From: a virus
IMG/VR virus record: IMGVR_UViG_3300007344_000212
Location: 1-25,528 of that record
Direction: 5' to 3' (one strand)
DNA length: 25,528 bases
Shown here: piece by piece, positions 7,299 to 25,528 of the stretch
Layout: every line of letters begins with the position of its first letter
How positions within the stretch are numbered: the stretch's first letter is position 1
Made by a program: the position numbers and the translations under genes
The notes under the pieces: model-generated
Told to the model about the DNA's origin: nothing
Database searches by the model: none
Seen by the model: only the letters and a program-made list of their open reading frames with translations

Positions 7299-7998
7299 AG
7301 CTCGGACAGGAAAATCAAGACTATGTAAAGAATTATACGATGCAGCTGAGCGTTTAGGTTGGGACATTGAAATCAAACCGTTTGCCGGTCCCCTAAAGAA
7401 ACACGTTGTGGAAACACTAGGGTTTACTAAAGAAAGTAATCCTAGTATGTATCGCAAGTACTGCCAAAAGATTGGCGCTGAAGAACGCAAGAAAGATCCA
7501 GATCATTGGGTAAAGCTATGGCATAAAGATATGCTAGAAGAATTCAAGACTGAGATGGAAACAAGCGAGCGTCCTGTTCTGTATTTGGTAGACGATGTGC
7601 GATATGCCAACGAGATTAAGACTCTTAATAGACCAGATGTAAATGCAACTATCTTGTTTGTTAAGCACGGTAAACGACAGATTGAAGATCCTGACGGAGC
7701 ATGGAGACAGCACGAATCAGAAAACTTAGCTAACACTTATGAAAAAAGTCCAGATGAATACTTAAAGAACGAGGTTGGTTATCACTTTGTAGTGCATAAC
7801 GACAAACCAGAAGAAGAGATTCAAAAGTGGGCTACAAATTTCATTAGTTACTTAGCCGCATCTGATCCGTGCTTATGTGAAACATGTGTTGCAAATTATG
7901 AAATGCGAGAACCAAACATAGACAAAATAGATGAGGAGCTAAAAGAGTTTCTCAACGATCTTTTAGGAGAAGAAGATGAAGAAGACGGCGATGCCTGA
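7273..7998 (+). CDS. Deoxynucleoside monophosphate kinase (T4 gp1-like)
   Basis: This 241-aa protein should phosphorylate dNMPs to dNDPs with ATP, recycling nucleotides from degraded host DNA. The P-loop G-K-A-R-T-G-K-S is at residues 8-15. The D-D-V-R-Y-A-N-E segment near residue 110 matches the DVRxxNE signature of phage dNMP kinases. I chose the ATG at 7273 because the P-loop then starts 7 residues in, as usual; in-frame TTG codons at 7258 and 7267 are possible, and no clear Shine-Dalgarno decides it. A C-E-T-C pair and a very acidic C-terminal tail (E-E-D-E-E-D-G-D-A) follow the kinase body. The tail's codons also supply the ribosome site and first codons of the exonuclease gene, a 23-nt overlap. 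Confidence 0.85.
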   Translation: MIILGLSGKARTGKSRLCKELYDAAERLGWDIEIKPFAGPLKKHVVETLGFTKESNPSMYRKYCQKIGAEERKKDPDHWVKLWHKDMLEEFKTEMETSERPVLYLVDDVRYANEIKTLNRPDVNATILFVKHGKRQIEDPDGAWRQHESENLANTYEKSPDEYLKNEVGYHFVVHNDKPEEEIQKWATNFISYLAASDPCLCETCVANYEMREPNIDKIDEELKEFLNDLLGEEDEEDGDA

Positions 7999-8713
7999 CG
8001 TTGCTATTCTAGATGCAGATATCATTGCGTATAAGGCAGCGTGCTGGGCTGAAGCTCATAGTTCTTCTTTGTCGGATATCAAAGATAGACTATCCTTTGA
8101 TGTTAACTATTGGACTCCTCCGGGTTTGTCTAGACGTATGCTGGCATTTTCTTGTAGTAGGCAGGATAATTATCGTAAAGATTATTGGCCAAGCTACAAA
8201 GAGAATCGAACAGGTAAGCCAAGACCTAAGTTCTTAGAGGTCTGTCAAAGGATCCTTCAAGAAACAGAGCAGACCGTTGCCTTGCCTCGCCTTGAGGCAG
8301 ACGATATTGTGGGCATCGGTATGAGTTCTGGGACTATGGTTGGAGTCAGCCTTGACAAAGATCTTAAGTCTTGCCCTGGTTGGTACTGGAATCCAGAAAA
8401 GCTGGACTTCCCTATTTATATTAACGAAATAACAGCTAATCTATGGTTTCATAAGCAATGGCTTATGGGCGATTCAACAGACCACATTCCGGGTATCCCT
8501 AAAGTTGGTCCTGTTAAGGCCCAAAAGTTATTGGACTCTGTAACCCACGTTAACTGGACTCCCCTAGTCTTACATGAATACGAAAAACGAGGCTTTGATC
8601 TGGACTATTGTCTGGCTCAGGCCCGTTGTGTCCGTATCCTTCGAGATGGAGAGTGGGACAAGGAGGCCAAGGTCCACGTGCCTTGGTCTCCTTGCTGGGG
8701 CGTTAACGCCTGA
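7976..8713 (+). CDS. 5'-3' exonuclease (T7 gp6 / FEN-like)
   Basis: This 245-aa nuclease removes RNA primers and degrades DNA ends in the 5'-3' direction; in T7 the equivalent gp6 also feeds host-DNA nucleotides to replication. Metal ligands are visible in order: I-L-D13-A-D15, L-E107-A-D109-D110, S-L-D127-K-D129 and G-D166-S-T-D169. The R/K-rich stretch at 67-78 with Y-K-E-N-R and the H3TH segment after residue 166 (I-P-G-I-P-K-V-G-P-V-K-A) complete the FEN fold. AGGAGA at 7964-7969 lies about 6 nt before the ATG, supporting this start over the ATG at 7991. The length is a little below T7 gp6 (300 aa). It ends the tightly overlapping gene chain that begins with the polymerase. Confidence 0.9.
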   Translation: MKKTAMPDVAILDADIIAYKAACWAEAHSSSLSDIKDRLSFDVNYWTPPGLSRRMLAFSCSRQDNYRKDYWPSYKENRTGKPRPKFLEVCQRILQETEQTVALPRLEADDIVGIGMSSGTMVGVSLDKDLKSCPGWYWNPEKLDFPIYINEITANLWFHKQWLMGDSTDHIPGIPKVGPVKAQKLLDSVTHVNWTPLVLHEYEKRGFDLDYCLAQARCVRILRDGEWDKEAKVHVPWSPCWGVNA

Positions 8714-8715
8714 GT

Positions 8716-8761
8716 CTAAGAGAAACTAAGAACTAAGCTATACTAAGCAAAGGAGAGACAC
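8716..8761 (+). promoter_or_regulatory. dut leader: four CTAAG repeats plus ribosome site for a TTG start
   Basis: The 48-bp gap between exonuclease and dUTPase is the only non-overlapping junction in this part of the map. It contains CTAAG at 8716, 8726, 8733 and 8743. A strong ribosome site AAAGGAG (8749-8755) follows, 6 nt before a TTG start codon. The repeats could bind a regulator or be part of a phage promoter, but I see no matched copy elsewhere that would define a consensus. Confidence 0.4.
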
Positions 8762-9265
8762 TTGAATAGCTATACTACTAATCATAATGAATATACAAAT
8801 GAGTCTTCTGTAACAACCGAGAGCCAAGTATTCTACATGCCCTCGATTAAGATCTATACATATCCAGACGCTAAGATGCCAACGGTAAGCACCCAAGGTA
8901 GCGGTGGCTTGGATCTATTTGTATATGATTATAAGGTTGAAGATCATCAAACTACCGTCTTTACAGGCGCTCATGTGGAGATTCCCCTTGGGCACGTAGG
9001 CTTGGTAATACCTAGGTCTTCGACTGGAACCAAGGGATTCCGTCTCAAGAATACGGTTGGTGTCATTGATGCTGACTACCGAGGCGAGATCCGCCTTGTA
9101 TGTGATAGATTTGAGAACGAGGAAGATGTAGTAGAGGTGGGAGTAAAGATTGCCCAGCTCGTTATTCTTCCTGTATGTCCATTCCCCGTGGAGCAGGTAT
9201 CAAGTCTTGAGGATTTAAGTGAAACAGAAAGAGGGGCTAATGGATTCGGTTCAACAGGACTTTGA
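8762..9265 (+). CDS. dut: dUTP diphosphatase (dUTPase)
   Basis: This trimeric enzyme hydrolyses dUTP to dUMP and PPi, keeping uracil out of phage DNA and supplying dUMP for dTMP synthesis. All five family motifs are present in order: G-S-G-G-L-D-L (46-52), P-R-S-S-T-G-T-K-G (84-92), G-V-I-D-A-D-Y-R-G-E (100-109), K-I-A-Q-L-V-I (129-135) and R-G-A-N-G-F-G-S-T-G (157-166). The start is TTG, chosen because AAAGGAG sits 6 nt upstream; the first downstream ATG near the conserved body (8837) has no ribosome site. The resulting N-terminal extension of about 25 Asn/Thr/Ser-rich residues is unusual for the family. The gene overlaps nrdJ by 26 nt, and both act in dNTP supply. Confidence 0.93.
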   Translation: MNSYTTNHNEYTNESSVTTESQVFYMPSIKIYTYPDAKMPTVSTQGSGGLDLFVYDYKVEDHQTTVFTGAHVEIPLGHVGLVIPRSSTGTKGFRLKNTVGVIDADYRGEIRLVCDRFENEEDVVEVGVKIAQLVILPVCPFPVEQVSSLEDLSETERGANGFGSTGL

Positions 9266-11150
9266 TTATTCAGACGATTGGAGTGAGTTTAGTAAGTTCA
9301 TCCATCTGAGTAAGTACTCAAGGTGGAATGAAGATAAGAAGCGGCGAGAGACTTGGGGCGAAACAGTAGACCGCTGGTGGGTTTGGCTCAATGAGCAGGC
9401 CGCCAAGAACGGCGTTACTGAAGTTCCGTCTTTCGTTAAGGATCTAGTCTATAAGCGAGAGGTCATGCCAAGTATGAGATCTCTAATGACTGCCGGTAAG
9501 GCAGCTAACAGAGACAATACTTGCATCTTTAATTGTTCATATCTGGAGTTGGACTCCCCAATTGCATTAGCGGAGCTGCTGTATATTCTTATGAATGGTA
9601 CAGGAGTTGGCTACAGTGTGGAGAAGCGGGTCGTTGATAAGTGGCCTGCTATTCCAGAGAACATTGAACGCAACGAGGGCCACTACCTTGTAGCCGGAGA
9701 TAACAAGGCAGGCTGGGCAGACATGGTTAAGCAGTTACTTAATTGTTTAATTAATGGAAAGCATCCTACATGGGAACTCCATAACATCCGCCCTGCTGGT
9801 GCCAGACTTAAGACCTTCGGAGGGCGCGCATCTGGTCCCGAACCCCTAGAAGATTGTCTTCGGTTTATTACCAAGACAATCTATGGGGCAAGGGGCCGTA
9901 AGCTGCGTCCTATTGAAATCCATGACATGGCTTGTGTCATCGCTAATTCAGTCATCGTTGGCGGCGTGAGACGCTCGGCTATGATTAGTCTATCAGATCT
10001 TGACGATCATGAGATGGCTAGAGCCAAGTCAGGGAACTGGTGGGAGAACCACTCCTACCGTTCCCTCGCCAATAACAGCGCAGTCTATGAAGAGAAGCCA
10101 GCAATGGATGTCTTCATGGAGGAGTGGCTAAATATTTACCGCAGTTATAGTGGTGAAAGAGGTATCTTTTCCCGGCAAGCTGCTCGGCATTGTGCTAATC
10201 AGATTAATCGAAACTCAGATCATTACTTTGGTACTAATCCTTGTGGTGAGATTACTCTACGGCCTATGCAGTTCTGTAACTTGTCTGAGGTTGTCTTGCG
10301 GCCTAAGGATGGCATCCGTGCGGTGTTTGATAAGGTAGAGGCAGCAACCATTATTGGGTGCATCCAAGCTACCTGCACGCACTTCCCCTATCTTCGAAAG
10401 AAGTGGCGGGACAATACCGAAGAGGAGGCGCTGCTTGGCGTCAGCCTTACCGGCATCTGTGACTACGAGCCGTCATACGGAGAGTTGCTTGACTACCGAG
10501 AAAAGGCTCACAACGTTGCTGCAGAGTGGAGCACAAAGCTCGGCATTAAGATGCCCGCTGCTATCACTACGGTGAAGCCCAGCGGTACTGTATCGTGCCT
10601 TGTTGACTCTAGTTCCGGCATCCATGAGCGATGGTCACAATACTACATCCGGCGTGTCCGCATGGACCGCAAGGATCCTATGTGCCAAATGATGATGGAT
10701 CAAGGTATCCCCGGCGCTCCATGCGTCAACAATCCTGATAACACCTATGTCTTTGACTTTCCTATTGGAAGCCAAACACCAGTTAAGCATAAGTCGGCCA
10801 ATGGTCAGCTTCGAACTTGGGGACTGGTAAAGGAAGGATACACTGATCACAATCCAAGTGTTACTATTACTTATCAACCACATGAGTATATGGAACTTGG
10901 AGCTGAGCTTTATGGTAATTACTGGGAGATTGCACAAGGACTTTCGTTCTTGCCTAAGTCTGAACACGTATACCAACAGGCTCCTTATGAATCCATTACA
11001 GCTGAAGAGTATGAGCAGCTAGCTAAGGCTATGCCTACGATGGACTGGTCTGCTCTCAGTAAATATGAAATGGAAGATAACACTAAGTCCAGTCAAGCAT
11101 TCGCTTGCACTGGCGGTGCCTGCGAAATCGTAGACACTACAGAAGGTTAA
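9240..11150 (+). CDS. nrdJ: Adenosylcobalamin-dependent ribonucleoside-triphosphate reductase (class II, monomeric type)
   Basis: This enzyme reduces NTPs to dNTPs using a B12-derived radical, independent of oxygen. Catalytic residues are in place: N333-P-C335-G-E337 (thiyl-radical Cys and Glu), C346 in F-C-N-L-S-E, and the redox partner C99 in F-N-C-S. The C-terminal pair C623-x4-C628 (C-T-G-G-A-C-E) is the swinging-arm reductant typical of the Lactobacillus leichmannii RTPR type. Other conserved stretches are N-G-T-G-V-G-Y-S near 119-126, G-G-V-R-R-S near 241 and K-P-S-G-T near 446. At 636 aa it is about 100 residues shorter than the L. leichmannii enzyme. The ATG at 9240 is preferred over an in-frame GTG at 9219 because AGAGGGG (9229-9235) lies 4 nt before it. 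Cobalamin must come from the host. Confidence 0.93.
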   Translation: MDSVQQDFDYSDDWSEFSKFIHLSKYSRWNEDKKRRETWGETVDRWWVWLNEQAAKNGVTEVPSFVKDLVYKREVMPSMRSLMTAGKAANRDNTCIFNCSYLELDSPIALAELLYILMNGTGVGYSVEKRVVDKWPAIPENIERNEGHYLVAGDNKAGWADMVKQLLNCLINGKHPTWELHNIRPAGARLKTFGGRASGPEPLEDCLRFITKTIYGARGRKLRPIEIHDMACVIANSVIVGGVRRSAMISLSDLDDHEMARAKSGNWWENHSYRSLANNSAVYEEKPAMDVFMEEWLNIYRSYSGERGIFSRQAARHCANQINRNSDHYFGTNPCGEITLRPMQFCNLSEVVLRPKDGIRAVFDKVEAATIIGCIQATCTHFPYLRKKWRDNTEEEALLGVSLTGICDYEPSYGELLDYREKAHNVAAEWSTKLGIKMPAAITTVKPSGTVSCLVDSSSGIHERWSQYYIRRVRMDRKDPMCQMMMDQGIPGAPCVNNPDNTYVFDFPIGSQTPVKHKSANGQLRTWGLVKEGYTDHNPSVTITYQPHEYMELGAELYGNYWEIAQGLSFLPKSEHVYQQAPYESITAEEYEQLAKAMPTMDWSALSKYEMEDNTKSSQAFACTGGACEIVDTTEG

Positions 11151-11159
11151 CCCCCGTCT

Positions 11160-11196
11160 GAGAGGGATCCGGCTAACGCTGGGTCTCTCTCTTTTT
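11160..11196 (+). terminator. Rho-independent terminator after nrdJ
   Basis: A 14-bp stem (11160-11173 with 11178-11191, three G-U pairs, no mismatch) closes on a TAAC loop and is followed directly by five T's. It ends the replication/nucleotide module. Only 18 nt separate it from the next start codon, so no obvious promoter fits between them. Confidence 0.9.
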
Positions 11197-11214
11197 CTAT
11201 TTTCGGAGAACACA

Positions 11215-11469
11215 ATGTCATATTTAAACATGGAGGCAATCTTTCAACGCCTCCGGTCAGGTATCGTTATGCTGTCACAAGGTGAACAGCGTACAGTATT
11301 AAACTATCTTGTGGATCAAGTACATGAGCTTAGAGAACAAGTTGAAAGCCTTCGTCGATCCGAATCTACCGAAGGTCCTCAAGGAGAGGATAGCGAAGGT
11401 AGAGTACGTCGAGGACGAAAGCCCAAGTCTTACCAGGGAGAAACTGGCGAGACGGCAGGGGATGCTTGA
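11215..11469 (+). CDS. Small coiled-coil protein with a disordered charged tail
   Basis: This 84-aa protein is unrecognised. Residues 1-47 are helical and contain heptad-like leucines (V-L-N-Y-L-V-D-Q-V-H-E-L-R-E-Q-V-E-S-L). Residues 48-84 are Gly/Glu/Ser/Arg-rich with R-R-G-R-K-P-K and look disordered. The start ATG has CGGAGA at 11204-11209, about 5 nt upstream. From 11324 its sequence is shared, in another frame, with the next gene, and the disordered tail maps exactly to that shared part, as expected for an overprinted region. It could be a small regulator or an oligomerising virion accessory. Confidence 0.65.
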   Translation: MSYLNMEAIFQRLRSGIVMLSQGEQRTVLNYLVDQVHELREQVESLRRSESTEGPQGEDSEGRVRRGRKPKSYQGETGETAGDA

Positions 11470-11521
11470 CACAATTGCCATCTTAGAAGCCATGGTACGT
11501 GATCAAGAAAGGAAGAAGTAA
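11324..11521 (+). CDS. Small protein, 65 aa, overlapping the previous gene in the +1 frame
   Basis: This frame runs from ATG 11324 to TAA 11521, and its stop overlaps the next gene's ATG (TAATG), which argues that it is translated. The product is balanced and helix-prone, with E-K-L-A-R-R-Q-G-M-L-D-T-I-A-I-L-E-A-M near the C-terminus. I see no strong Shine-Dalgarno before 11324; coupling to the upstream gene, an upstream TTG at 11309, or +1 frameshifting from the 84-aa frame are alternatives. A shorter product starting at ATG 11471 is out of keeping with the well-formed upstream segment. Function unknown. Confidence 0.6.
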   Translation: MSLENKLKAFVDPNLPKVLKERIAKVEYVEDESPSLTREKLARRQGMLDTIAILEAMVRDQERKK

Positions 11522-12591
11522 TGCCTATCTTTATGAACGACCCTACCATGCGAGATGTACAATATCAAGTTGGTAGTTATCGAGATAGTTTTAGTTTAGC
11601 AGATTTATTTACTAATAGACTATCATCTCGTATGTCTCAATTTGGTGAAGCAGCTAAGACTAAAACTATGGAACTTACATCTGGGTTTCAAGATTTTGGT
11701 TTAAAGGATATTCGAGAAGAGCGTAGAGAAGCTGAAATCGGCAAAGCATCCGCTGAATCCGAAAAGGCTTTGGGCGCGCTTGCTCAAGCTAAACAAAGTC
11801 GAGGACCAATTACAAGTTTATCCAAGCTTGTACAAACTCGTCAACAAAAACTACAGAATTTACAACGTGCTCGTAAATCACTAGAACGTGCTAAAGACAT
11901 GTACAAAATGACTGGCACTTCCTTTGAATATGATTTAACAGGGTACGATGTAAAAGCCCCAGAAGCTGCAGCATTTGAAACTCAGTTTGATCAGGCTGTT
12001 GAACAACGTAAACAACAATACGCTGAAATGTATGGCTTTGATTCGTTTGAAGACATGCCTGCAGATTATGCATCCGTTGGTGCTGTCGGGCCTCAAGGTC
12101 AATCACAAGAAAGTACAATTGGACAACGTGATATTATGGATATGATCATGTCTGATATGACAGGCATGGATTATTCCGATCTTGTTCGACTTAACACATG
12201 GACTCAAGAGGGCTATCAGCATTCAGGTGCTGGTTGGTATCAGCCTTACGCACAACAAGGTTTACAAGATTATACTGGCGATCAAATGGAAGCCCTAAAA
12301 GCTTTCTATGTTACATCTAATCTTCAGTCTTATGAAGCAGCAAGGAAAACTGCTGAACAAGAAGATCTGTTTAGACAGAAAGCAGCTAAGACTGCTAGAG
12401 AACAGACTATTGCTGGTGGCAAGGCTTTAGAGAAGTCAGCTACTAAAAGCCTTGGTCAATCTTTAGAAGATGTTCAATTACAAATTAGAGAGCTAGACAC
12501 AGATTTTATGAATAAACTCGGAGCCTTTACCGAAGGACCTCGTAAGAAAAAAGTACGAAGCGTTTCTTTCGACGAAGGCAGACCACAATGA
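11521..12591 (+). CDS. Hypothetical virion-region protein with long helical segment
   Basis: This 356-aa protein is unrecognised. It is Gln/Ala/Lys-rich with a long predicted coiled coil at about residues 65-135 (many Ala, Glu, Lys, Arg) and a second helical stretch at about 265-335, separated by a Tyr/Met/Asp-rich middle (150-260). It ends in a basic K-K-K-V-R segment. The start is fixed by the TAATG overlap with the previous gene. Its place just upstream of the portal and its helical composition fit an internal virion or head-assembly protein, but motif evidence is lacking. There is no signal peptide or membrane segment. Confidence 0.7.
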   Translation: MPIFMNDPTMRDVQYQVGSYRDSFSLADLFTNRLSSRMSQFGEAAKTKTMELTSGFQDFGLKDIREERREAEIGKASAESEKALGALAQAKQSRGPITSLSKLVQTRQQKLQNLQRARKSLERAKDMYKMTGTSFEYDLTGYDVKAPEAAAFETQFDQAVEQRKQQYAEMYGFDSFEDMPADYASVGAVGPQGQSQESTIGQRDIMDMIMSDMTGMDYSDLVRLNTWTQEGYQHSGAGWYQPYAQQGLQDYTGDQMEALKAFYVTSNLQSYEAARKTAEQEDLFRQKAAKTAREQTIAGGKALEKSATKSLGQSLEDVQLQIRELDTDFMNKLGAFTEGPRKKKVRSVSFDEGRPQ

Positions 12592-12603
12592 TAGGAGATA
12601 ACT

Positions 12604-12942
12604 ATGGGTGGTGGTCCTACAATTGCAGGCGGTATGAGTGAAGAACAATACCGTAAACTACAAATGGAAGAACGAGCTTACATGGCGCAACAAGAAGAGC
12701 GTCAGATGAAGCTTATGGGTGAAATGGAAGATAAGCGTCTAGCTAGAGAGCAAGCTGAAATTCAAAAGCAAGAACGTGTTCGTGCTAGAGAAGAAGAAGC
12801 TCTCGGTGAACTTGAAGCCGGTATCGGTGAAGAGGTCACTGGCTTGAAGGCTGCAGAGGAAGAAGAAGATAAAGATATTGTCATGGACTTCTATGGTAGT
12901 TTAGCTAAGGGTCAAGACAATAAAGGGAGTAGACCGGAATGA
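12604..12942 (+). CDS. Highly charged coiled-coil protein, hypothetical virion-associated
   Basis: This 112-aa protein begins M-G-G-G-P-T-I and continues as one long helix of Glu, Arg, Lys, Gln and Met (about residues 14-95). The ribosome site AGGAGA (12594-12599) lies 4 nt before the ATG. The last 4 nt overlap the portal start (ATGA). A short Gly-rich N-terminus plus an extended helix occurs in some phage internal-virion or scaffolding accessories; this is an analogy only. No catalytic motif is visible. Confidence 0.7.
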   Translation: MGGGPTIAGGMSEEQYRKLQMEERAYMAQQEERQMKLMGEMEDKRLAREQAEIQKQERVRAREEEALGELEAGIGEEVTGLKAAEEEEDKDIVMDFYGSLAKGQDNKGSRPE

Positions 12943-14558
12943 ATCTAGCAGGTGAACTTGAAAGCACCATTGCAGATCGTTTTTCGGAACTAGATATCAG
13001 ACGAAGATCTAAACTAGATCGAGCACGTGAATGTGCTATTCTTACTGTACCAAGTTTAATGCCACCCGAGAACTGGTCTGAGGAGTTTGAACTTCCTCAA
13101 CCTTATTCTTCTGTTGGATCAAGAGGAGTCACAGCCCTAGCATCTCGTATGCTATCAGCTTTGATTCCTCTTAACGATCTACCGTTCTTTACCTTTGCTC
13201 TTAAGAGTGGGGTAGAGCCTGAGGTAGAAGTCGGAACTCTCCTTGATTCTTTAGCAATGCAAGTCTACGATAAGATGAAGAGCAAGAACATCCGTGAGGC
13301 GTTCTTTCAAGCACTTCAAAGTCTTATTGTAGTTGGTGATATTGCTGTAAAGATCGAGGAAGACTTTACATTTAGGTGCATTAGGTTTGACCACTATGTT
13401 GCTATCCGTGACGTAGTAGGGGATCTAGTTGAGTTTATTCATTTAGAATTTATTCCCGATGAAACTCCACTCCCAGCTGACAGTCAAGAGACTTGGGGCT
13501 ATGGATTGTGGAACCGCAATGGTTTTAAAACTATTTTCTGTCGTTATGTTTTAGACGAAGAAGGTAAATGGCATGGGCGTAAAGAAGACTTTGATGGTAA
13601 CGTCATTGATGAAGGCGTCTACGAAGTCTTCCCTTATGCCGTGCTTCGATGGAACTCCGTGGTCAGTGAAAACTATGGGCGTTCTAAATGTGAAGAGATC
13701 TTTGGTGATCTAAAGACTCTTGAAGCTTATACAGAAAGTCTTATCAATGGAATGGCAGCCGCCTCTACATTCTTCATGTCTGTGTCTCCAACAGGAGTTA
13801 CAGAACTTACCGATCTCGCAACAGCTCAAAATGGAGAATGGGTTGCTGCTAGACAAGAAGATGTCTATGTTATTTCGCCTGCTCAAACAATCAATCCGCA
13901 GATTCAACAGACACAGAACAGTGTAGAGATGATGCGTCGAGAGATTGGCGAAGCCTTCTTAATGAACCGAGGTTCAATTAGAAACGCAGAGCGTGTAACT
14001 GCAACAGAAGTACGTATGATTGGTCAGGAACTAGAACAGGTCTTAGGTGGAGCGTTTAGCTCCATCGCTAGAGATCTTCTGGTTCCTGTTATTAAACGTA
14101 CTATTTACTTAATGGTAGAGGCTGGGGATATTGATCCTCGCCTATCACAAGACTTCTTTGATAGAGACGGTAGACTAACACTAGATATCGTCACTGGTCT
14201 ACAAGCACTTAGCAGAGATACAGAACTTCAGAAGCTTATGCAGATGGGCGAAATGATTCGTAACCTTCCGCAACAAGCTGTTCAACATTTCCGATTTGAT
14301 GAATACGGCAAGGCTCTTATTTCAGCTCTTGGGTTTGATCCACGTAATTGGATTAAGTCACAAGGAGATCTTGATGAAGAGCGAGCTAAGATGATGCAAG
14401 AGCAAACCCAAGCACAGGTAGCTGGCGCTGCGGGTCAAGGACTTGCTCAAGCTGCTGGTCAAGGTGTTGGCCAAGCGGCACAAGCCATGGCTCCGCAGAT
14501 CATGGAACAGATCATGACTGGTGGAGGCGCTCCTGTACAAGGAGGGCCGATGGGATGA
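12939..14558 (+). CDS. Portal protein / head-tail connector (T7 gp8-like)
   Basis: This 539-aa protein forms the dodecameric portal ring through which DNA is packaged and to which the tail attaches. The N-terminus has the family pattern: R-A-R-E-C-A-x-L-T-V-P followed by Q-P-Y-S-S-V-G-S-R-G-V-T-A-L-A-S-R-M-L-S-A-L-x-P and the F-F-T-F segment. The length is almost identical to T7 gp8 (536 aa). The Gln/Ala/Gly-rich C-terminus (about 470-539) resembles the flexible barrel or tail part of these portals. The start overlaps the upstream stop by ATGA. Scaffold and capsid genes follow two small genes downstream, matching T7 synteny. Confidence 0.93.
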   Translation: MNLAGELESTIADRFSELDIRRRSKLDRARECAILTVPSLMPPENWSEEFELPQPYSSVGSRGVTALASRMLSALIPLNDLPFFTFALKSGVEPEVEVGTLLDSLAMQVYDKMKSKNIREAFFQALQSLIVVGDIAVKIEEDFTFRCIRFDHYVAIRDVVGDLVEFIHLEFIPDETPLPADSQETWGYGLWNRNGFKTIFCRYVLDEEGKWHGRKEDFDGNVIDEGVYEVFPYAVLRWNSVVSENYGRSKCEEIFGDLKTLEAYTESLINGMAAASTFFMSVSPTGVTELTDLATAQNGEWVAARQEDVYVISPAQTINPQIQQTQNSVEMMRREIGEAFLMNRGSIRNAERVTATEVRMIGQELEQVLGGAFSSIARDLLVPVIKRTIYLMVEAGDIDPRLSQDFFDRDGRLTLDIVTGLQALSRDTELQKLMQMGEMIRNLPQQAVQHFRFDEYGKALISALGFDPRNWIKSQGDLDEERAKMMQEQTQAQVAGAAGQGLAQAAGQGVGQAAQAMAPQIMEQIMTGGGAPVQGGPMG

Positions 14559-14818
14559 CCTTAAGTAAATCCGCTAAGTACTATAGATCAAACCCTAAAG
14601 CGCGTAAAGTTAAAAGCGAATATGATACTAAGTACCATAAGTCTCCATCTCGTCGTAAGTATCGTTCTGAACTTAATCAAGAGAACAGAAAGCGTGGAAC
14701 CTACGGCAATGGAGACGGTAAAGATGTATCTCATACGCGCAAAGGTACAACTGTATTAGAAACACAATCTAAAAATAGAGCCAGACAAGGATCTGGCGGC
14801 AAACGCAAAAGGAAATAA
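14555..14818 (+). CDS. Small very basic protein, conserved-looking, unknown function
   Basis: This 87-aa protein is rich in Lys, Arg, Ser, Tyr and Asn. The start Y-Y-R-S-N-P-K-A-R-K, middle G-N-G-D-G-K-D-V-S-H-T and end K-N-R-A-R-Q-G-S-G-G-K-R-K-R-K have the look of a short phage protein carried with the portal in many podoviruses, though I cannot name a characterised member. The charge suggests nucleic-acid binding, perhaps during packaging. ATGA coupling to the portal fixes the start and suggests co-production with it. Confidence 0.7.
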   Translation: MTLSKSAKYYRSNPKARKVKSEYDTKYHKSPSRRKYRSELNQENRKRGTYGNGDGKDVSHTRKGTTVLETQSKNRARQGSGGKRKRK

Positions 14819-14820
14819 TA

Positions 14821-15036
14821 ATGGCAAAGTTTGATTATACTGGAGTTACTGCCGGTATTAGGGATAACGATTGGGAGACTTGGCTTGAAGCTGCTCCCCA
14901 AGATGTTGCTGACACTCTCGCTGGCATCGTTGGACTTACTGACGTAGGTACTGATGGCGATTGGGATGTTGTCAACGATTCTAACTATAATGAACTACTA
15001 ACTCAAACACGTGGTTTTTATAAGAAGGTGAAGTGA
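14821..15036 (+). CDS. Small acidic hypothetical protein
   Basis: This 71-aa protein has an acidic, Asp/Trp-containing body (D-N-D-W-E-T-W, D-G-D-W-D-V-V) and a short basic end (F-Y-K-K-V-K). It begins 2 nt after the previous stop and ends 1 nt before the scaffold start. The upstream AAAAGGAAA gives a ribosome site. It contrasts in charge with the basic protein just before it, so the two could interact; that is speculation. Function unknown. Confidence 0.65.
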   Translation: MAKFDYTGVTAGIRDNDWETWLEAAPQDVADTLAGIVGLTDVGTDGDWDVVNDSNYNELLTQTRGFYKKVK

Positions 15037-15037
15037 A

Positions 15038-15910
15038 ATGAGTGAAGAGAACACTGAACAAGTTACTAACGAGGTATCAGAGACTACTGCTGCTCCTCAG
15101 CCTGGTACTCCTGAGTATGATGCTACTATGGCTGCTCAGGGTACTGTAGCTACTGGTAAGGTTCCTGATAAGTTTAAGAACCCAGATGGTTCTGTAAACA
15201 TGGATGCCCTTATTAAGTCTTATACATCACTTGAACAAAAGCTTCATCAACCTACAGAGGTCGAAGAGACAGAGCCTACAATTGAAGATGCTGGTCCCGA
15301 TGCTGTAGTTGATGAGCTTAGAGTTCCAGATGTAGAAAAGGAAGCAGAAGAAACAGTCGAAGCCGCAGCAAAGGTCGGGCTTACACGCGAAGACCTTGGT
15401 CACATGACTAATGAGATCATGCGGTCTGGTACTATTTCAGATGAACAGCGAGCATCTCTCAACGATCGAGGGATTGATGATGCTGTTATCGACGCTGTTG
15501 TAGAAGGGCAACGTGCTCGTATGCGACAGCAATATTCTGCAGCTGCTGACATTGTTGGCGGCTCAGATCGTCTATCTAAGATTTTTGGATGGGCCGCTCA
15601 TAATTTAGATGAAATGCAGCGTGCCCAAATCAATGCTGGCCTTGCCAGCAATGCAAGTGAAATCACATTACGTGGCTTAGCTTCTATGTATGATACTGCT
15701 GTAGCCAATAAGCCGAAGAGTCAGGAGATGCAAGCTGGGCCTCGTAAACCGGGTCAGTCACCTGCTGGTAGAGAAGTTGTGCAGGGCTTCTCAACAAAGG
15801 CAGAGTACTACAAGGCTTATGAGGATCTCACAAAGAATCCCCATGACCAGAAGCTTCGTAATACGATTGAAGAGCGTATGGTGAAAACTGATTGGACAAC
15901 TATTAGGTGA
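15038..15910 (+). CDS. Capsid assembly scaffolding protein (T7 gp9-like)
   Basis: This 290-aa protein probably directs procapsid assembly and leaves before maturation. It has the usual composition: an acidic, disordered N-terminus (Glu/Thr/Pro-rich to about residue 100), then helical segments and a basic C-terminal part that would contact the shell. The segment P-D-K-F-K-N-P-D-G-S-V-N-M-D-A-L-I-K-S-Y near residue 45 is typical of T7-like scaffolds. The length is close to T7 gp9 (307 aa). The position immediately before the capsid gene supports the call. The 138-bp gap that follows is the largest non-coding stretch between annotated genes after the portal except for the post-capsid leader. Confidence 0.88.
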   Translation: MSEENTEQVTNEVSETTAAPQPGTPEYDATMAAQGTVATGKVPDKFKNPDGSVNMDALIKSYTSLEQKLHQPTEVEETEPTIEDAGPDAVVDELRVPDVEKEAEETVEAAAKVGLTREDLGHMTNEIMRSGTISDEQRASLNDRGIDDAVIDAVVEGQRARMRQQYSAAADIVGGSDRLSKIFGWAAHNLDEMQRAQINAGLASNASEITLRGLASMYDTAVANKPKSQEMQAGPRKPGQSPAGREVVQGFSTKAEYYKAYEDLTKNPHDQKLRNTIEERMVKTDWTTIR

Positions 15911-16048
15911 TGCTCTCTAAGGACAGCTAAACCCTAATAGAAGTCAACGGCCCGCAAGGATAACCGTAATTAGAATAAACTATATTAACTTCGCTTGCAA
16001 GTTCAAATTATTTTAACATTCAAAACAATTCAATAAGGATTAAAACAA
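15911..16048 (+). promoter_or_regulatory. Capsid gene leader, AT-rich
   Basis: This 138-bp non-coding stretch precedes the major capsid gene. It becomes strongly AT-rich after about 15970. A small dyad AACTT/AAGTT with a 7-nt centre lies at 15987-16003, and a ribosome site AAGGAT at 16035-16040 precedes the ATG by 8 nt. The AT content and position make it a likely site for a capsid promoter, but no clear -35/-10 pair or phage-type promoter can be defined. Confidence 0.35.
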
Positions 16049-17359
16049 ATGGCCTATCCTGATATTACCTGGGATACTGGAAACATGTACGGTCGTACGA
16101 CCGATCCCTCAACCGGCGCTACCACTGGTGGTGCTAGCGGTACTGATAAGCTTTGGCTTCCTATCTGGAGTGGCGAAGTCATTCGTGCCTACGACCACTA
16201 CCGTATCTTTGAACCCATGGTTGAGAGCCGCTCTATTGCTAGTGGTCGCGCCATGGAGTTCCCAATCACTGGTACTGTTGCAATGAAGAGTGCATGGAAC
16301 GCTGGTGAAGAGCTAGTTGGTAACATCGACGATCATGTCTCAAAGACTATCGCTGTTACCCTCGATGCTCGTCCCATCGCTTCACACTTTGAAATTGACA
16401 ACATCGACCTTATGATCACCCAGTGGGAGTTCCGTTCTGAGCTAGCCCGTCAGGCTGGTCAGACCCTCTCCAACGCCCGTGACCTTCAGGTCGGTGCTTA
16501 CTTAGTTCGCGCTGCTTGCGAGAACCAGATTGCTACCGATCCCCGTCTTAGTGGCGTAGGTACTTCTACCACTTGGAGAAACACTCTTAAAGAGTCACCC
16601 CTATTCCACGTCGGTGATGATGGCGCTGCTGGTACAGGCGTTGTTGGTAAGAGTGCTCTTGCAAACCTCGGTCTTGCAGGCGCAACTGCTGCTAACCGTG
16701 CAAGCGCAGCTCTTGCACTTCTTGAGTGCATTGAAGAGTTCATGGTCCACCTTCAGGAGATCAACGCTCCTACTGCCGGTGTTTACTGCGCAGTAACCCC
16801 ACGTGTCTTCCAAGACATTCGTGCTCTAGGCGTTGCTCGTACTAGTGCTGACCTTGCTGGTGGCGCTGGTCGTCCATACTTTGGCGGTGTTGCTGAAGCT
16901 GGTGGCCTTGGTGCTGGTCTTTCCGATGGCATGGCTGCTCTTACTGACTCACTAGAGTACATGGGCTGCCGTATTGTTAAGACTAACCATCTCCCCAACT
17001 TTGATGCAGGTGCCACAGGCGCAGAGATTGGTGAAGCCCGTTACAACCTAAACTTTGCTAACGACGCTGGAACCTCTGCCGGTAACGGTATCGGTGTTGG
17101 TGCCGTTATTTGGCAATCAGGGGCCGTCGCTTCTATCCAGAAGACTGGCCTCAAGGTTGACACCGTTGATGACGTTCGTCGCAACACCGTCTTCACCGTT
17201 GCTAGCATCATGGCTGGTACTGGTGTACTTAAGCCAGAGTGTGCCTCAGTTGTTTGTGTCAAGGATCTTGGCACTGACACCAAGGCTCAAGCTCGTACCC
17301 TTCTCGGTATGACTGCTGAGTGGGCTGATCTTGCTGGTGGTTCAGGTTACTACGCCTGA
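16049..17359 (+). CDS. Major capsid protein (T7 gp10-like)
   Basis: This 436-aa protein forms the icosahedral shell (HK97-like fold in this family). The N-terminal third shows the T7-like pattern: D-K-L-W-L-P-I-W-S-G-E-V-I-R-A-Y, then R-S-I-x-S-G-x-A-M-E-F-P-I-T-G-T and the D-D-H-V-S-K-T-I-A-V-T-L-D segment before the long helix. It is longer than T7 gp10A (345 aa); the extra length lies in Gly/Ala-rich loops between about 180 and 330. Codons are strongly biased to C-ending forms (GCT/GGT/CGT/AAC), as expected for the most abundant virion protein. A good ribosome site lies upstream and a terminator follows within 140 bp. No slippery heptamer for a 10B-type frameshift is seen near the stop. 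Confidence 0.95.
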   Translation: MAYPDITWDTGNMYGRTTDPSTGATTGGASGTDKLWLPIWSGEVIRAYDHYRIFEPMVESRSIASGRAMEFPITGTVAMKSAWNAGEELVGNIDDHVSKTIAVTLDARPIASHFEIDNIDLMITQWEFRSELARQAGQTLSNARDLQVGAYLVRAACENQIATDPRLSGVGTSTTWRNTLKESPLFHVGDDGAAGTGVVGKSALANLGLAGATAANRASAALALLECIEEFMVHLQEINAPTAGVYCAVTPRVFQDIRALGVARTSADLAGGAGRPYFGGVAEAGGLGAGLSDGMAALTDSLEYMGCRIVKTNHLPNFDAGATGAEIGEARYNLNFANDAGTSAGNGIGVGAVIWQSGAVASIQKTGLKVDTVDDVRRNTVFTVASIMAGTGVLKPECASVVCVKDLGTDTKAQARTLLGMTAEWADLAGGSGYYA

Positions 17360-17396
17360 TAATTAATAGACTGAAAGGAACCTTTGTTATGGTTTT

Positions 17397-17447
17397 GGTC
17401 CTCTCCGAAAGGGGGTGATCCAGTCTCGCCAGCGGTAATCAATGGCG
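17397..17447 (+). other. Stem-loops in the capsid-tail intergenic RNA
   Basis: Two hairpins precede the terminator. One has a GAAA tetraloop at 17407-17410 with a G-C/G-U stem (17402-17406 with 17411-17415, extendable across a mismatch and bulge to 17397/17421). The second pairs CGCCA (17427-17431) with TGGCG (17443-17447). With the terminator, the 165-nt gap carries at least three consecutive stem-loops. They could stabilise the capsid mRNA 3' end or be RNase sites; no coding signal is evident apart from a 9-codon frame at 17390. Confidence 0.4.
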
Positions 17448-17466
17448 TTAAGTCCGCAATACTTGA

Positions 17467-17501
17467 CCGGCTCTTGGGGGAAACCCCAAGGGTCGGCTTT
17501 T
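17467..17501 (+). terminator. Rho-independent terminator after the capsid gene
   Basis: A 13-bp stem (17467-17479 with 17484-17496, two G-U pairs) closes on a GAAA tetraloop and is followed by C and four T's. The position directly behind the capsid gene matches T-phi of T7, which lets through only part of the transcription and so lowers tail expression relative to capsid. Confidence 0.88.
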
Positions 17502-17524
17502 ACATCTTATATAGGAGATTCGAC

Positions 17525-18184
17525 ATGGGAGCTTACACAAGACTCCAAGCTGTTAACGAGATGCTCCTCTTTTCTGGTGAAACTCCTGTTGCATCTTTAG
17601 ATTCATCCTCAGGAGTCGATACCACAATTGCAGAGCAGATTCTAGAACAGAAAACAATTGATGCTCAAGCTAGAGGCATGGCAAATAACCTGACTATCAG
17701 GGACTTTACTGCCGATGCTGCTGGTTATGTGTTCCTTCCCTCTAATGTATTGTCAGCTGAAATGTTGACTATGGTCAATGCCGCTCATAAGGATGTTACT
17801 TATGCTCGCGTTGTGACCCGAGGATGGGAAACTGGTACACCGTTTTTTTATAATCTTACAGATAATACCCCTTTGTTTGAAGCGGGTAAGACATATACTG
17901 CTGAGCTTATCTTAAGCATTTCATGGGACAACATGGATACCGCTATCCAAAAAGATATCATGATGCAAGCAGCTCGTCAATATCAAATGCTTACCCAAGG
18001 TGATGGTGCTGTAGATAACTACATTGCTCAGCTAGAGCTTTATTATGGAGCTAAAGCTAAAGGAGCCGATGTACGCAGCAAGGGTTATAACTTATTTAAC
18101 CTACACCGTACAGCACGCAATGCTGTATCAAGGTATGTACGAAACGATCCCAACCGTTTCAGACAATGGAATCTAGATTCATAA
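17525..18184 (+). CDS. Tail tubular protein A (T7 gp11-like, head-tail adaptor)
   Basis: This 219-aa protein forms the ring between portal and nozzle in T7-type tails. The start M-G-A-Y-T-R-L-Q-A-V-N-E-M-L-L-F-S-G-E-T-P-V is the family's hallmark N-terminus, where a helix is followed by a short loop. The C-terminal Y-I-A-Q-L-E-L-Y-Y with a basic end fits as well. The ATG at 17525 has TAGGAGA at 17511-17517; the frame stays open upstream to a TTG at 17384, but that stretch would translate the terminator hairpin and is rejected. The length is close to T7 gp11 (196 aa). Confidence 0.92.
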   Translation: MGAYTRLQAVNEMLLFSGETPVASLDSSSGVDTTIAEQILEQKTIDAQARGMANNLTIRDFTADAAGYVFLPSNVLSAEMLTMVNAAHKDVTYARVVTRGWETGTPFFYNLTDNTPLFEAGKTYTAELILSISWDNMDTAIQKDIMMQAARQYQMLTQGDGAVDNYIAQLELYYGAKAKGADVRSKGYNLFNLHRTARNAVSRYVRNDPNRFRQWNLDS

Positions 18185-21659: not shown

Positions 21660-22376
21660 ATGGCTTATACAGATCAAATTGCGTATCGAGATGTAGACAG
21701 AGCCTATACAAGGGTTGCTAATCTAGGTAGCCTTAAGCTATGTTACATCAGATCCTTTGAGATTACCAAAGCATCTGACACTCAATTCGCATTAACCGTA
21801 AATAAGCATCAGCTTATTGGTAAGTATCCTACTATCAATGCTGCTTTTGGAGCGTTGGTTGGTTGCTTCCATTCGCTTGGTGTAAATGAAGAGTATGCCT
21901 TAGAGGCTATCTCAACAATGATTGCTGAAGGGACTGGTCAATATCCCAAGGCATATCAAAAACTAACAATGCTTTTTTCAGGTAGTGGTGTTCCTACAAC
22001 AATTCTAACAGACAGTTCTACAACAGAAGATATCTTATCTTCAACTGCCACAACCCTTGAATGGATTAATGCAACAGACCCAACCAAGTTTCAACTTTGG
22101 TGGGGATCGTTCACAGGCAACACAACTACCGGCAGCGGTAGATATCCTTTTAAAGGTGCAGCACAAGCGGAACTATACTCTGCAAGATTTAAAGGAACGA
22201 TTGTAGTTGATTCAATAAATCCAACTTACGATCAAACCATTACACTGGGAGCTACAGCAGACGATCCTATTGATGGCGTCGAAGCAACTGCTAATGTGGT
22301 TTTAACCAATGCAGCAAACGTTGACCTCAAATCTATTGGTAACTTTACAGCAACTATTACTGTAGAGGAAATCTAA
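21660..22376 (+). CDS. Hypothetical tail-region protein
   Basis: This 238-aa protein is unrecognised. The first 120 residues are mixed helix/strand (A-Y-T-D-Q-I-A-Y-R-D-V-D-R-A-Y). The rest is Thr/Ala/Asn-rich and strand-like, ending in T-I-T-V-E-E-I. The ATG at 21660 has TTGGAGAT (21649-21656) upstream; a start at 21624 would place codons inside the terminator stem and is rejected. It couples to the fibre gene by TAATG. It lies where T7 has gp13-gp16, but it is far too short to be an internal core protein and looks instead like a tail or fibre adaptor. Confidence 0.7.
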   Translation: MAYTDQIAYRDVDRAYTRVANLGSLKLCYIRSFEITKASDTQFALTVNKHQLIGKYPTINAAFGALVGCFHSLGVNEEYALEAISTMIAEGTGQYPKAYQKLTMLFSGSGVPTTILTDSSTTEDILSSTATTLEWINATDPTKFQLWWGSFTGNTTTGSGRYPFKGAAQAELYSARFKGTIVVDSINPTYDQTITLGATADDPIDGVEATANVVLTNAANVDLKSIGNFTATITVEEI

Positions 22377-23755
22377 TGCCGTATAAAAGTAGTACAATTA
22401 TTACAGAACTAGATAACATTAGTATCGCATCTGGACCTACATATGCGTACAGTGGATTATCTGGTATTGACAACAACAGATCACATTCGTCTCAGATCCA
22501 AGTATTGTTTTACTTTGATCAGTTTCAAAACGGAACAAACGTAAGTGATTATACTTGGGATAACTGGTATGATCCTTACTTACTGCCAGTAAAGACTGAT
22601 GAAGGTACTACGATTCTTAATTATGATCAGTCTACTCAAACAGTAACCATTACAAACACAGAAGCAATTACTCGTACAGATGCTAATGGCACTGGAGGAC
22701 TACAGCTTCCTACGTTTAACAATGGTACTTACATTAGAATCCTTAGATCTCAGAACGTTACTAATCCGTCCCATACCTTTGGGGCCGGAACTAGAGTAAC
22801 GTCTACTGCTTTGAACAACTCATTTAGGCAGGTCTTTGATTCTATCCAAGAACTAGACGATCGTCTTATTAGAGTCGAGGGTTCTGCTTTTGAAGATGGC
22901 TTTGCTTTTTCTAATCTTACTGATGTAAATGTAAGCGGAAGCTCAACATGGGATGTTCTTAGATGGAACGGATCTAGTTGGGTCAACGACCAGATGGATG
23001 CATCTAGGATTTCAACTGGTACACTAAGCAATGATCGGCTTTCAAACGTTCCAGTATCAAAGCTTGCTGGTGTTCTAGCAGATTCTCAAGTAGCTCAAAG
23101 TAATGTAACTCAGTATGCAACTGACGTTGCTGCTGCCATTGAGCTAGACGATATTAGCAATGTTGCAGCTACATTGGTTACAGATAATTCATTTATTGTT
23201 TATGATTTTGGAACAAGTAACTGGACAGCCTTAAGTCCTGCTAATACGCAAATTGCATTGGGTTTAGAAACTGCGGTTCTTTCACCTCTAGTAGATCTAA
23301 GTACTCTACCAGATGTAAGTGCAGGAAGCGTTGGAAACATTGTTACACTTACTCAAGCTGAGTATGATGACATTGCATCACCAGATCCTGACACAATCTA
23401 TGTAGTGTCTGGTGGAACTACTGTTGGTGCTTCAATTCAAGATTCGTATCTTATGCTTATTGAAGCTCCTCCTGATAGTACAACCCAAGCTTATACAATT
23501 GATGGTCGTGTTGCTGCAGGAAGAACTATTACAGCTTTTACTGCAAGAACCACATCCGGTACTATTAACGTTGCGTTGAAGAACTTAACAACAGGTAACA
23601 CAATTACGTCATTATCCGGCGTAAGTTCATCTGGTTCAACCAATGTTGGTCCTTTTACTTATCAAGATGTTGCTGAGAATGCAAGACTTGCCATTGAAAT
23701 CAGTAGCGGAAGCAGTGCTTCATTTCTTGAATTAGTCGTGGAGTACTTACAATGA
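22376..23755 (+). CDS. Tail fibre protein with T7 gp17-like anchor domain
   Basis: This 459-aa protein probably attaches the fibre to the tail. Residues 1-165 resemble the T7 fibre N-terminal anchor: strands ending in T-R-V-T-S-T-A-L-N-N-S-F-R-Q-V-F-D-S-I-Q-E-L (139-160), where a short loop leads into the helical stalk. Residues 180-202 carry an L-T-D-V...G...W-D-V-L-R-W-N-G-S-S-W unit, a repeat type common in phage fibres and present twice in the truncated fibre at the window end. A second unit (L-D-D-I-S-N-V) follows. The C-terminal 110 residues are Ser/Thr-rich and strand-like and could carry a receptor-binding or adaptor domain. The next gene overlaps by ATGA. Confidence 0.85.
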   Translation: MPYKSSTIITELDNISIASGPTYAYSGLSGIDNNRSHSSQIQVLFYFDQFQNGTNVSDYTWDNWYDPYLLPVKTDEGTTILNYDQSTQTVTITNTEAITRTDANGTGGLQLPTFNNGTYIRILRSQNVTNPSHTFGAGTRVTSTALNNSFRQVFDSIQELDDRLIRVEGSAFEDGFAFSNLTDVNVSGSSTWDVLRWNGSSWVNDQMDASRISTGTLSNDRLSNVPVSKLAGVLADSQVAQSNVTQYATDVAAAIELDDISNVAATLVTDNSFIVYDFGTSNWTALSPANTQIALGLETAVLSPLVDLSTLPDVSAGSVGNIVTLTQAEYDDIASPDPDTIYVVSGGTTVGASIQDSYLMLIEAPPDSTTQAYTIDGRVAAGRTITAFTARTTSGTINVALKNLTTGNTITSLSGVSSSGSTNVGPFTYQDVAENARLAIEISSGSSASFLELVVEYLQ

Positions 23756-24357
23756 CGCCGCCTACCGTGCAGTTCATCCGGGCAGGCGGCCCGACGCTGA
23801 TCATCCACGACGCGTTCGGTGGTTCTGGATCGGCGACCGGACGAACTCCCGATACCGTCGACAATGGAGAAGTTTGGCAGACCTCTAGAACTTGGGTGGT
23901 GGGATCCGGCTACCTAAACGCGACAAGCAGTAGCGGCGTTCAGTATTGCGCAATCGATCCGACGGCGTCTAATTTCACTGTCGAAGCCATCTCTCAGGGC
24001 GATGACAGCGTCGGCACAAACTATTTCAGGCATGGGTTTTACTGGCATTATGACACGAGTACCGGCGCTTTTAGCCGTCTAATTTTCGATGATGACAGCA
24101 CACTCACGCACCAAGAGTACACCGGCTCGATTTTTACGGTGAACACAAACGTCGACACATTTGCGGCGGTTGCGAACAACACCGACATCGACTGGTCAAT
24201 GACTTGTAATGCATCGTCGATTAATTGGACTATTTCCGTCGGTGGTTCGACGATTAGTTCCGGGTCTGTGACGCCGACATACTCACCATCTCTTATCGGA
24301 TTTTGGCATCGATACGGCAACACCGCCAGATGCCTCGATTTCAAGGTCTACGCATGA
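23752..24357 (+). CDS. Adhesin-like beta-sandwich protein on a G+C-rich segment
   Basis: This 201-aa protein is probably a fibre-tip or receptor-binding subunit. The order of alternating strands, with H-D-A-F near residue 19, W-x-x-S-R-T-W near 43 and a closing L-I-G-F-W-H-R-Y-G-N-T-A-R-C-L-D-F-K-V-Y at the end, resembles a laminin-G/concanavalin-type jelly roll that binds glycans; I infer this from pattern only. Base use differs from the neighbours: 40 of 60 bases at 23761-23820 are G or C, against 28 of 60 in the preceding block, with many GCG, CCG, ACG and GAC codons. It overlaps the fibre stop by ATGA, so it is co-translated. Horizontal acquisition is likely. Confidence 0.7.
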   Translation: MTPPTVQFIRAGGPTLIIHDAFGGSGSATGRTPDTVDNGEVWQTSRTWVVGSGYLNATSSSGVQYCAIDPTASNFTVEAISQGDDSVGTNYFRHGFYWHYDTSTGAFSRLIFDDDSTLTHQEYTGSIFTVNTNVDTFAAVANNTDIDWSMTCNASSINWTISVGGSTISSGSVTPTYSPSLIGFWHRYGNTARCLDFKVYA

Positions 24358-24479
24358 ACACCATCAAGCACTTCCACAACATCGCAGGCGGTTTCGACCG
24401 CATCACCGGCGATTATATTTTATCTTATACTTTAAGGATAACAAATGAATACCATTCATTACTATTCACAATTAGCTAA
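24354..24479 (+). pseudogene. Truncated start of a foreign version of the next gene
   Basis: A frame opens at ATG 24354, coupled by ATGA to the adhesin-like gene, and encodes M-N-T-I-K-H-F-H-N-I-A-G-G-F-D-R-I-T-G-D in G+C-rich codons. At about 24414 the sequence changes abruptly to AT-rich, and the frame then runs into the ribosome site and start of the downstream gene before stopping at 24479. The downstream gene also begins M-N-T-I followed by aromatic residues. The simplest reading is a recombination junction that kept only the first 20 codons of the donor's copy. It may still be translated as a 41-aa peptide. Confidence 0.45.
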
Positions 24480-24670: not shown

Positions 24671-25528
24671 ATGCCAATTTATAAAGGCTCCTCCCAGATC
24701 AATGTAGGAGCCACTACGCATACACATACGCTTGCTGATATTACTGATGCTGGATCAGCTGCTGGGTCAGATACTACTGACTTTGCTGCTGCTTCCCATA
24801 CGCATACCTTAAGTAATATTACAGATGCCGGTACAGCAGCTGCTTCGGATACAGGTGACTTTGAACCTAGTGGAGCAGTGTCTTCTCACTCAGCTACTAC
24901 TAGTGGAGTTCACGGTATCTCAGCTTATGGCGCTACTCTTGTAGATGATGCTGATGCAGCTACGGCTCGTACAACTCTTGGTCTTGGGACGGCTGCTACA
25001 AGTAATACAGGTGATTTTGCACCTACGTTACATACGCATACACTGTCTCAGATTACTGACGCAGGTACTGCAGCTGCATCCAACACTGGAGACTTTGAGG
25101 CTTCAGGTGCAGTATCTACACACGCCGCTGTTACTAGCGGAGTACATGGTATCTCTGCTTTTGGAGCTACTCTTGTAGATGATGCAGATGCTTCTGCAGC
25201 TAGGACTACTCTAGGTCTAGGCACAGCAGCTACATCTAACACAGGTGACTTTGCTGCTGCTAGTCACACGCACGCACTCGGCGATCTTAGCGACGTTGAT
25301 ACAGGTGGAGCCACGACGGGGCAGGTGCTGGAGTTCGACGGAGCAGAGTGGGTCCCAGCGACTCCGTCTGCCGGTGCTGCCGCACTCGACGACCTCACCG
25401 ATGTCAGCACCGCAGGTGCGACCACCGGCGATGTGATCGTCTACAACGGCAGCACTTGGGCACCGGCGGCTCAGTCTGGCGGTGGAGAGATCGTGTCGGA
25501 CGCTGAGGGTGGCTACGGCGAGAACTCG
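24671..25528 (+). CDS. Repeat-rich trimeric tail fibre protein (3' end outside window)
   Basis: The frame runs from ATG 24671 to the window end without a stop (286 codons), so it is truncated. H-x-H motifs recur at residues 17-19, 43-45, 121-123 and 199-201; in T4 gp37 such motifs bind iron along the axis of the trimeric fibre needle. A 78-residue unit (from H-T-H-T-L through S-G-V-H-G-I-S-A to R-T-T-L-G-L-G-T-A-A-T-S-N-T-G-D-F) occurs twice in full. From residue 203 a different repeat appears twice: L-x-D-L-x-D-V-x-T-x-G-A-T-T-G followed by N/D-G-x-x-W-x-P-A. At the same point the codons become G+C-rich (41 of 60 bases at 25321-25380, against 29 of 60 at 24901-24960). The receptor-binding tip would lie beyond the window. 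Confidence 0.85.
   Translation, partial: MPIYKGSSQINVGATTHTHTLADITDAGSAAGSDTTDFAAASHTHTLSNITDAGTAAASDTGDFEPSGAVSSHSATTSGVHGISAYGATLVDDADAATARTTLGLGTAATSNTGDFAPTLHTHTLSQITDAGTAAASNTGDFEASGAVSTHAAVTSGVHGISAFGATLVDDADASAARTTLGLGTAATSNTGDFAAASHTHALGDLSDVDTGGATTGQVLEFDGAEWVPATPSAGAAALDDLTDVSTAGATTGDVIVYNGSTWAPAAQSGGGEIVSDAEGGYGENS
24797..25264 (+). repeat. Two direct 234-bp (78-aa) fibre repeats
   Basis: Unit 1 spans 24797-25030 and unit 2 spans 25031-25264; a third begins at 25265 and then diverges after the H-T-H. The protein units are nearly identical (changes such as Y86/F164, S59-D/S137-N), while many third codon positions differ. This pattern means the duplication is old and the protein sequence is held by selection, or that related units were exchanged between fibres. 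Confidence 0.85.

Follow-up and report, generated by a model that had tools for sequence, protein, structure and literature searches.

A T7-like podovirus has probably gained parts of its host-recognition machinery by horizontal exchange from a siphovirus-like phage group with a G+C content of 58-64%. The acquired pieces are a cassette at 23752-24411 and the portion of a second fibre gene (fibre B) that begins at base 25265. Both were found in the window, which is the whole of one virus record (25,528 bases, classed as possibly a fragment). The features of the adhesin region discussed below are as follows.

22376..23755, + strand: fibre A, 459 aa, resident composition, GC3 0.24 (Pfam PF24243)
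23752..23779, + strand: left flank of the cassette, consisting of the ATGA overlap and first 28 bases, MTPPTVQFI reading frame (28/28 in L100; near-identical in L090 and L099)
23752..24357, + strand: cassette ORF, adhesin-like, 201 aa, GC 0.53, GC3 0.60; its N-terminal MTPPTVQFI is common to the donor group
24354..24411, + strand: truncated donor start of the next gene (MNTIKHFHNIAGGFDRITG), by identity to L099 and L100
24445..24669, + strand: resident 74-aa gene, GC3 0.25, homologous to the MNTI gene found in high-G+C contigs (42% L079, 36% L009, 37% L040)
24671..25528, + strand: fibre B, reading frame open up to the contig end
24671..25264, + strand: fibre B codons 1-198, resident shaft of 78-aa H-T-H repeats, GC 0.478, GC3 0.212
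25265..25528, + strand: fibre B codons 199-286, imported LxDLxDV part (the tip), cut by the contig end, GC 0.655, GC3 0.682

The phage and its relatives

Placement of the window as a T7-like podovirus was based on PHROG and Pfam matches, which identified genes for a primase-helicase, DNA polymerase, exonuclease, ribonucleotide reductase, portal (head-tail connector), scaffold, major head protein, tail adaptor and nozzle. The G+C content of the phage is about 44%. Its nearest relative, L103, is 99.4% identical over 10,458 bp (window 7384-17841) and stops short of the fibre. Other relatives are L088/L101 (portal 94% and nozzle 70% identical to the window), L089/L102 (nozzle 63%), and L104, L106 and L105, with adaptors that are 68%, 66% and 63% identical, respectively. 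The adaptors of L107-L110 are more distant (26-30%). L105 has a GC of 0.54, and the GC3 of its nozzle gene is 0.63 versus 0.23-0.35 in the window, L088, L089, L104 and L106.

The replication region of the window also holds a G+C-rich gene (497-1027; GC3 0.63) with a codon score of +14.1, leaning to the G+C-rich table. Its product weakly matches phrog_112 (gp2.5-like ssDNA-binding protein; E 5e-4) and is non-adhesin in appearance, and no relatives of it were found in the 13 contigs compared. Because this gene is G+C-rich as well, composition by itself does not single out adhesins.

Composition switch within fibre B

A maximum-likelihood analysis of GC3 along fibre B placed the change point between codons 198 and 199, at base 25265, with a log-likelihood gain of 29.0. 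None of 5000 synonymous shuffles within the gene reached that gain, the largest being 11.7. This bears out the original prediction of a G+C and codon switch near codon 199, where GC3 rises from 0.21 to 0.68, and since the jump persists against synonymous shuffles, the amino acids are not its cause. The 2-unit support set of the change point consists of codons 196-199 and 212-214, and GC3 alone therefore places the switch only within about 16 codons. When scored for the siphovirus-like over the backbone codon table, codons 199-286 gave +30.4 and codons 1-198 gave -106.9. On the same score, the best of 464 backbone windows of 88 codons reached +13.3, with the caveat that many of these windows lie in genes that trained the backbone table.

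H-T-H occurs at codons 17, 43, 121 and 199 of fibre B. The last three are spaced exactly 78 codons apart, so the switch coincides with a repeat boundary, at the start of what would be a further shaft repeat. Beyond codon 199, LGDLSDV and LDDLTDV units are found. The H-T-H repeats thus do give way to LxDLxDV repeats, as had been proposed, but a change of this kind is ordinary: LxDLxDV is also present in 3 of the 11 fibre-like ORFs bearing H-x-H among the loci surveyed (window counted), and the fibre of L048 carries both repeat types with an even composition. Since single uniform fibres hold both, the repeat-type change was dropped as evidence in itself. The unusual feature of fibre B is its composition jump. 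Among 20 surveyed ORFs that each carry two or more H-x-H motifs (both strands, window counted), only the window combined 0/300 shuffles with a GC3 difference of at least 0.2; L009 also gave 0/300 shuffles, but its GC3 difference was 0.18. GC3 change points gave one clear case in 20 ORFs, and H-x-H as a possible general recombination hotspot was set aside on that footing.

A match to PF12789 (Phage tail repeat) scored 25.1 bits, below the curated cut-off of 27. For fibre B, comparison with PDB sequences returned one weak match, the short tail fiber gp92 (E 0.013).

Different relatives for the two halves of fibre B

Among 50,697 phage records, codons 1-198 had no protein match at E 1e-3, and the tip matched 28 records, all at less than 60% identity. 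As these records gave no closer answer, relatives of the two halves were taken from IMG/VR contigs. The tip has 10 relatives there, the best being L082 (86% identity in the best segment), a contig with a GC of 0.58 that is evenly G+C-rich throughout its fibre. When the whole window was compared by blastn with L091, a longer stretch of the same contig, the single match joined 25265-25365 to L091 6712-6812 (81% over 101 bp, E 1.6e-21). The composition change and the DNA homology to L091 therefore share their start, which is base 25265, the first base of H199. In-frame DNA identity to L082 is 6/15 just before H-T-H and 13/15 just after it. At only 81% identity to the tip, L091 is a relative of the donor and not the donor itself. 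For the shaft, the best protein matches are L001, L002 and L003/L004, and the best nucleotide match is L002, ending at 25253. It had been suggested that the fibre halves be compared separately and that shared closest relatives, with the G+C shift present throughout their lineage, would speak against a switch of lineage. Instead, the tip leads to the higher-G+C group and the first half to L001, L002 and L003.

We regard it as very unlikely that the tip is native to the podovirus family with a locally high G+C, or that it came from a G+C-rich relative inside that family. The existence of L105 as a podovirus relative with elevated G+C (its contig ends inside its first fibre) and of an evenly composed fibre with both repeat types in L048 would fit such an origin. 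However, the GC3 jump survives synonymous shuffles, and the best DNA match of the tip is a siphovirus-like contig, with homology that starts at the switch.

The tip consists of the contig's last 264 bases and its junction was found in a single contig, so a misassembled join is possible for it. According to this alternative, which we consider unlikely, the assembler fused a podovirus contig to a fragment of a G+C-rich phage present in that sample, at the repeated H-T-H. The closeness of the switch to the contig end and the repetition of H-T-H within the gene are compatible with such a chimera, as is the finding of the junction in no other contig: only L082 (tip residues 1-74) and L086 (1-67) among the 10 tip relatives have matches that reach the first residue of the tip, and both are without the resident shaft upstream. 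Nevertheless, the join preserves both the reading frame and the 78-aa repeat register. Near the junction, the window and L082 have no exact word longer than 14 bases in common; that word lies on the donor side (from 25271) and would be a small overlap for de Bruijn assembly, had the source been L082-like. In addition, DNA of the same donor group is held by the cassette, which has resident sequence on either side and, being internal, is far less exposed to this doubt.

The original prediction also named H-T-H as a spot of homology for swapping fibre tips. The join does fall there. On the other hand, the nearest donor relative shares at most 14 exact bases around the junction, the H-T-H codons are spelled differently in the resident repeats and in the donor, and no such join was present in the other fibres surveyed. 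We infer only that the exact H-T-H codons might have guided the tip exchange.

An adhesin-like cassette with near-identical flanks

Fibre A lies directly upstream of the cassette. Its N-terminal 160 aa are as in sister podoviruses (61% L088, 55% L089), and its C-terminal ~110 aa (DSYLMLIEAP...VVEYLQ) are homologous to the C-terminal end of the fibre in the high-G+C group (47% over 110 aa in L090). In the window, L090, L099 and L100 alike, the cassette position is downstream of a fibre with this type of C-terminus. The cassette ORF has a codon score of +34.3 for the siphovirus-like table. An IMG/VR scan with it gave one confirmed locus, L090 (77% over 39 aa), where the match is cut by the end of the L090 contig.

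Searching with a pattern taken from the truncated frame 3′ of the cassette led to L099 and L100 (GC 0.62 and 0.64). At the right edge, bases 24353-24411 are 58/59 identical to L099 and 24350-24411 are 59/62 identical to L100, and identity ends at 24411. The resident 74-aa gene is intact at 24445 and is thus preceded by a truncated donor copy of its own start. Between the near-identical flanks, the proteins of the window, L099 and L100 are dissimilar (201, 157 and 142 aa): the window protein aligns with its L099 and L100 counterparts over only the 13 and 9 starting residues. A pattern search for MTPPTVQFI returned four contigs, namely L099, L100, the L090 contig and L111 (GC 0.59), and the last has yet another gene there.

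For the middle of the cassette, no relative was found in the IMG/VR scan or in the pattern-search contigs. The ORF had no PHROG match and no significant Pfam match, and its protein had no match to PDB sequences at E 1. A single-sequence AlphaFold model was unusable (mean pLDDT 35.5).

The view that the distal adhesion machinery as such stems from a higher-G+C lineage is too broad. It holds for the tip and the cassette, whereas fibre A, the 74-aa gene and the 198-codon shaft are of resident composition.

Adhesin regions of sister podoviruses

In L089 (GC 0.42), the fibre is followed by genes of 120 and 379 aa with a GC3 of 0.63 and 0.60. These are 85% and 82% identical in protein sequence to genes of L040 (GC 0.58), with 76% DNA identity over 1.6 kb. 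L089 thus appears to hold a second exchange, in a sister phage, with G+C-rich adhesin-region genes akin to those of an unrelated contig. In L104, the same place is occupied by a 378-aa gene whose GC3 is 0.64. In L106, the fibre (GC3 0.20) and an MTPP-type gene (GC3 0.32) are of resident composition. Adhesin-region genes with a GC3 of at least 0.60 are consequently present in three of the four podoviruses covered there (window, L089, L104 and L106), a count that leaves out L107-L110 as well as L088, L103 and L105, whose contigs stop before the adhesin region.

The probable donor group and its unrelated backbone

L082/L091 and L090/L092 belong to a single lineage, with 95-97% DNA identity over ~5 kb but different fibres, and the best IMG/VR matches of the cassette (L090) and the tip (L082) fall in it. 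The fibre region is common to L090/L092, L099 and L100 at 84-85% DNA identity. The best DNA matches of the tip and of the 23752-24411 cassette thus come from one higher-G+C group (L082/L091, L090/L092, L099 and L100). L082 and its kin are probably siphovirus-like, judging from gene order, a weak PHROG match to a major tail protein (E 0.006) and a gene that reads as tape-measure-like.

For those ORFs of the window that were compared with L082/L090, matches lay mostly in the fibre region, with two further frames at 1-462 and 6727-6867. The window's capsid, portal, polymerase and nozzle had no match in these contigs. Identity at the transferred pieces is above that elsewhere, with 58/59 and 28/28 at the cassette edges; that of the tip is only 81%. 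With recognition genes related and backbones unrelated, the sequences point to a horizontally exchanged host-recognition module.

The two further frames are described here in their own right. The first encodes a metallo-phosphoesterase (phrog_221) with 38.6% identity over 150 aa to a frame of L082, which also has a phrog_221 gene. The second, of 47 aa, has 42.5% identity to a small Cys-containing protein whose gene immediately precedes the fibre in L082 and L090. A small protein of this type also occurs in L093, a contig from a metagenome-assembled genome (MAG), and is common to otherwise unrelated phages.

Proposed exchange and possible hosts

We propose that the cassette was joined at the start codon of the adhesin gene, inside DNA almost identical between the groups, and that the fibre tip was joined at a boundary of the 78-residue shaft repeat, at H-T-H, which would have kept frame and register. 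The outcome would be a resident shaft bearing a foreign distal part in frame. Recombination through these short homologies during co-infection would be the most economical account. Position and precedent suggest that the swapped parts bind the receptor, and the two phage groups presumably share hosts.

A phage protein with a dockerin-like C-terminus is encoded in L093 (1894-2520), L089 (12578-13237), L079 (3066-3689) and L009 (8421-9047), and also in L040. Dockerin_1 scored above cut-off in L089 and had no match in L079. A search of genome contigs with the dockerin-like alignment (L079, L009, L089) gave one confirmed locus, L093 in the Phycisphaerae MAG MED835, and L093 is itself a phage contig binned in that MAG. 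At E 1e-15, the alignment was matched in 1 of 397 Phycisphaerae genomes and 1 of 392 genomes of the phylum, MED835 both times. The window's nozzle protein has matches in 3 of the 397 Phycisphaerae genomes, at 26-36% identity. Phycisphaerae may be considered a weak lead to the host, based on a dockerin-like protein and a single phage contig binned in a MAG.

A more far-reaching scheme is offered tentatively, and we consider it possible but doubtful as a whole. Podoviruses and siphovirus-like phages 15-20 G+C points apart might share an adhesin exchange locus. In it, a mobile, hypervariable adhesin gene would sit between near-identical flanks, formed by its own opening 28 bases and by the initial ~55 bases of the MNTI gene. 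Fibre tips would move at shaft-repeat boundaries, and the common host might be an uncultured marine Phycisphaerae planctomycete.

Comparison with known systems

In the window, the joints of an apparent exchange of recognition parts can be placed at the base level, for uncultured phages with unrelated backbones and very different G+C. The event is still readable because composition has not yet ameliorated and one joint is 98% identical. Shared adhesin cassettes might also serve to connect phages with unrelated backbones through the host that they have in common.

At the distal tail-fibre locus of T-even phages, adhesin specificity was reportedly found by Tetart et al. in 1998 to be swapped by recombination between conserved fibre motifs, and these motifs are said to be linked to G-x-H-x-H. 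The join in the window is similarly located at an H-x-H motif. A literature search on His-box adhesins and GxHxH found no paper, which is not taken to mean that the present case is absent from print.

A report on Alteromonas describes a host-recognition module common to phages A5 (podovirus), V22 (myovirus) and P24 (siphovirus) (PMC10579305). As in that account, a fibre and neighbouring genes are common here to otherwise unrelated genomes and, probably, tail types. The Alteromonas module is presented there as a syntenic block of up to ten genes in phages with known hosts (PMC10579305). In contrast, the pieces in the window are smaller, one of them is intragenic, and they are joined across a large G+C gap. 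For E. coli phage tailspikes, another report describes conserved DNA motifs that flank the receptor-binding domain and are proposed as recombination sites (PMC10408124). Similarly, a variable part of the window is bordered at either end by short conserved DNA, a pattern that spans phage genera in the tailspike account. The first tailspike motif is placed inside the tailspike gene (PMC10408124), whereas the flanks in the window surround an entire short gene and extend into the following one. The window thus appears to be a fresh example of phages swapping their host-recognition parts, a well-known phenomenon, with unusually clear joints.
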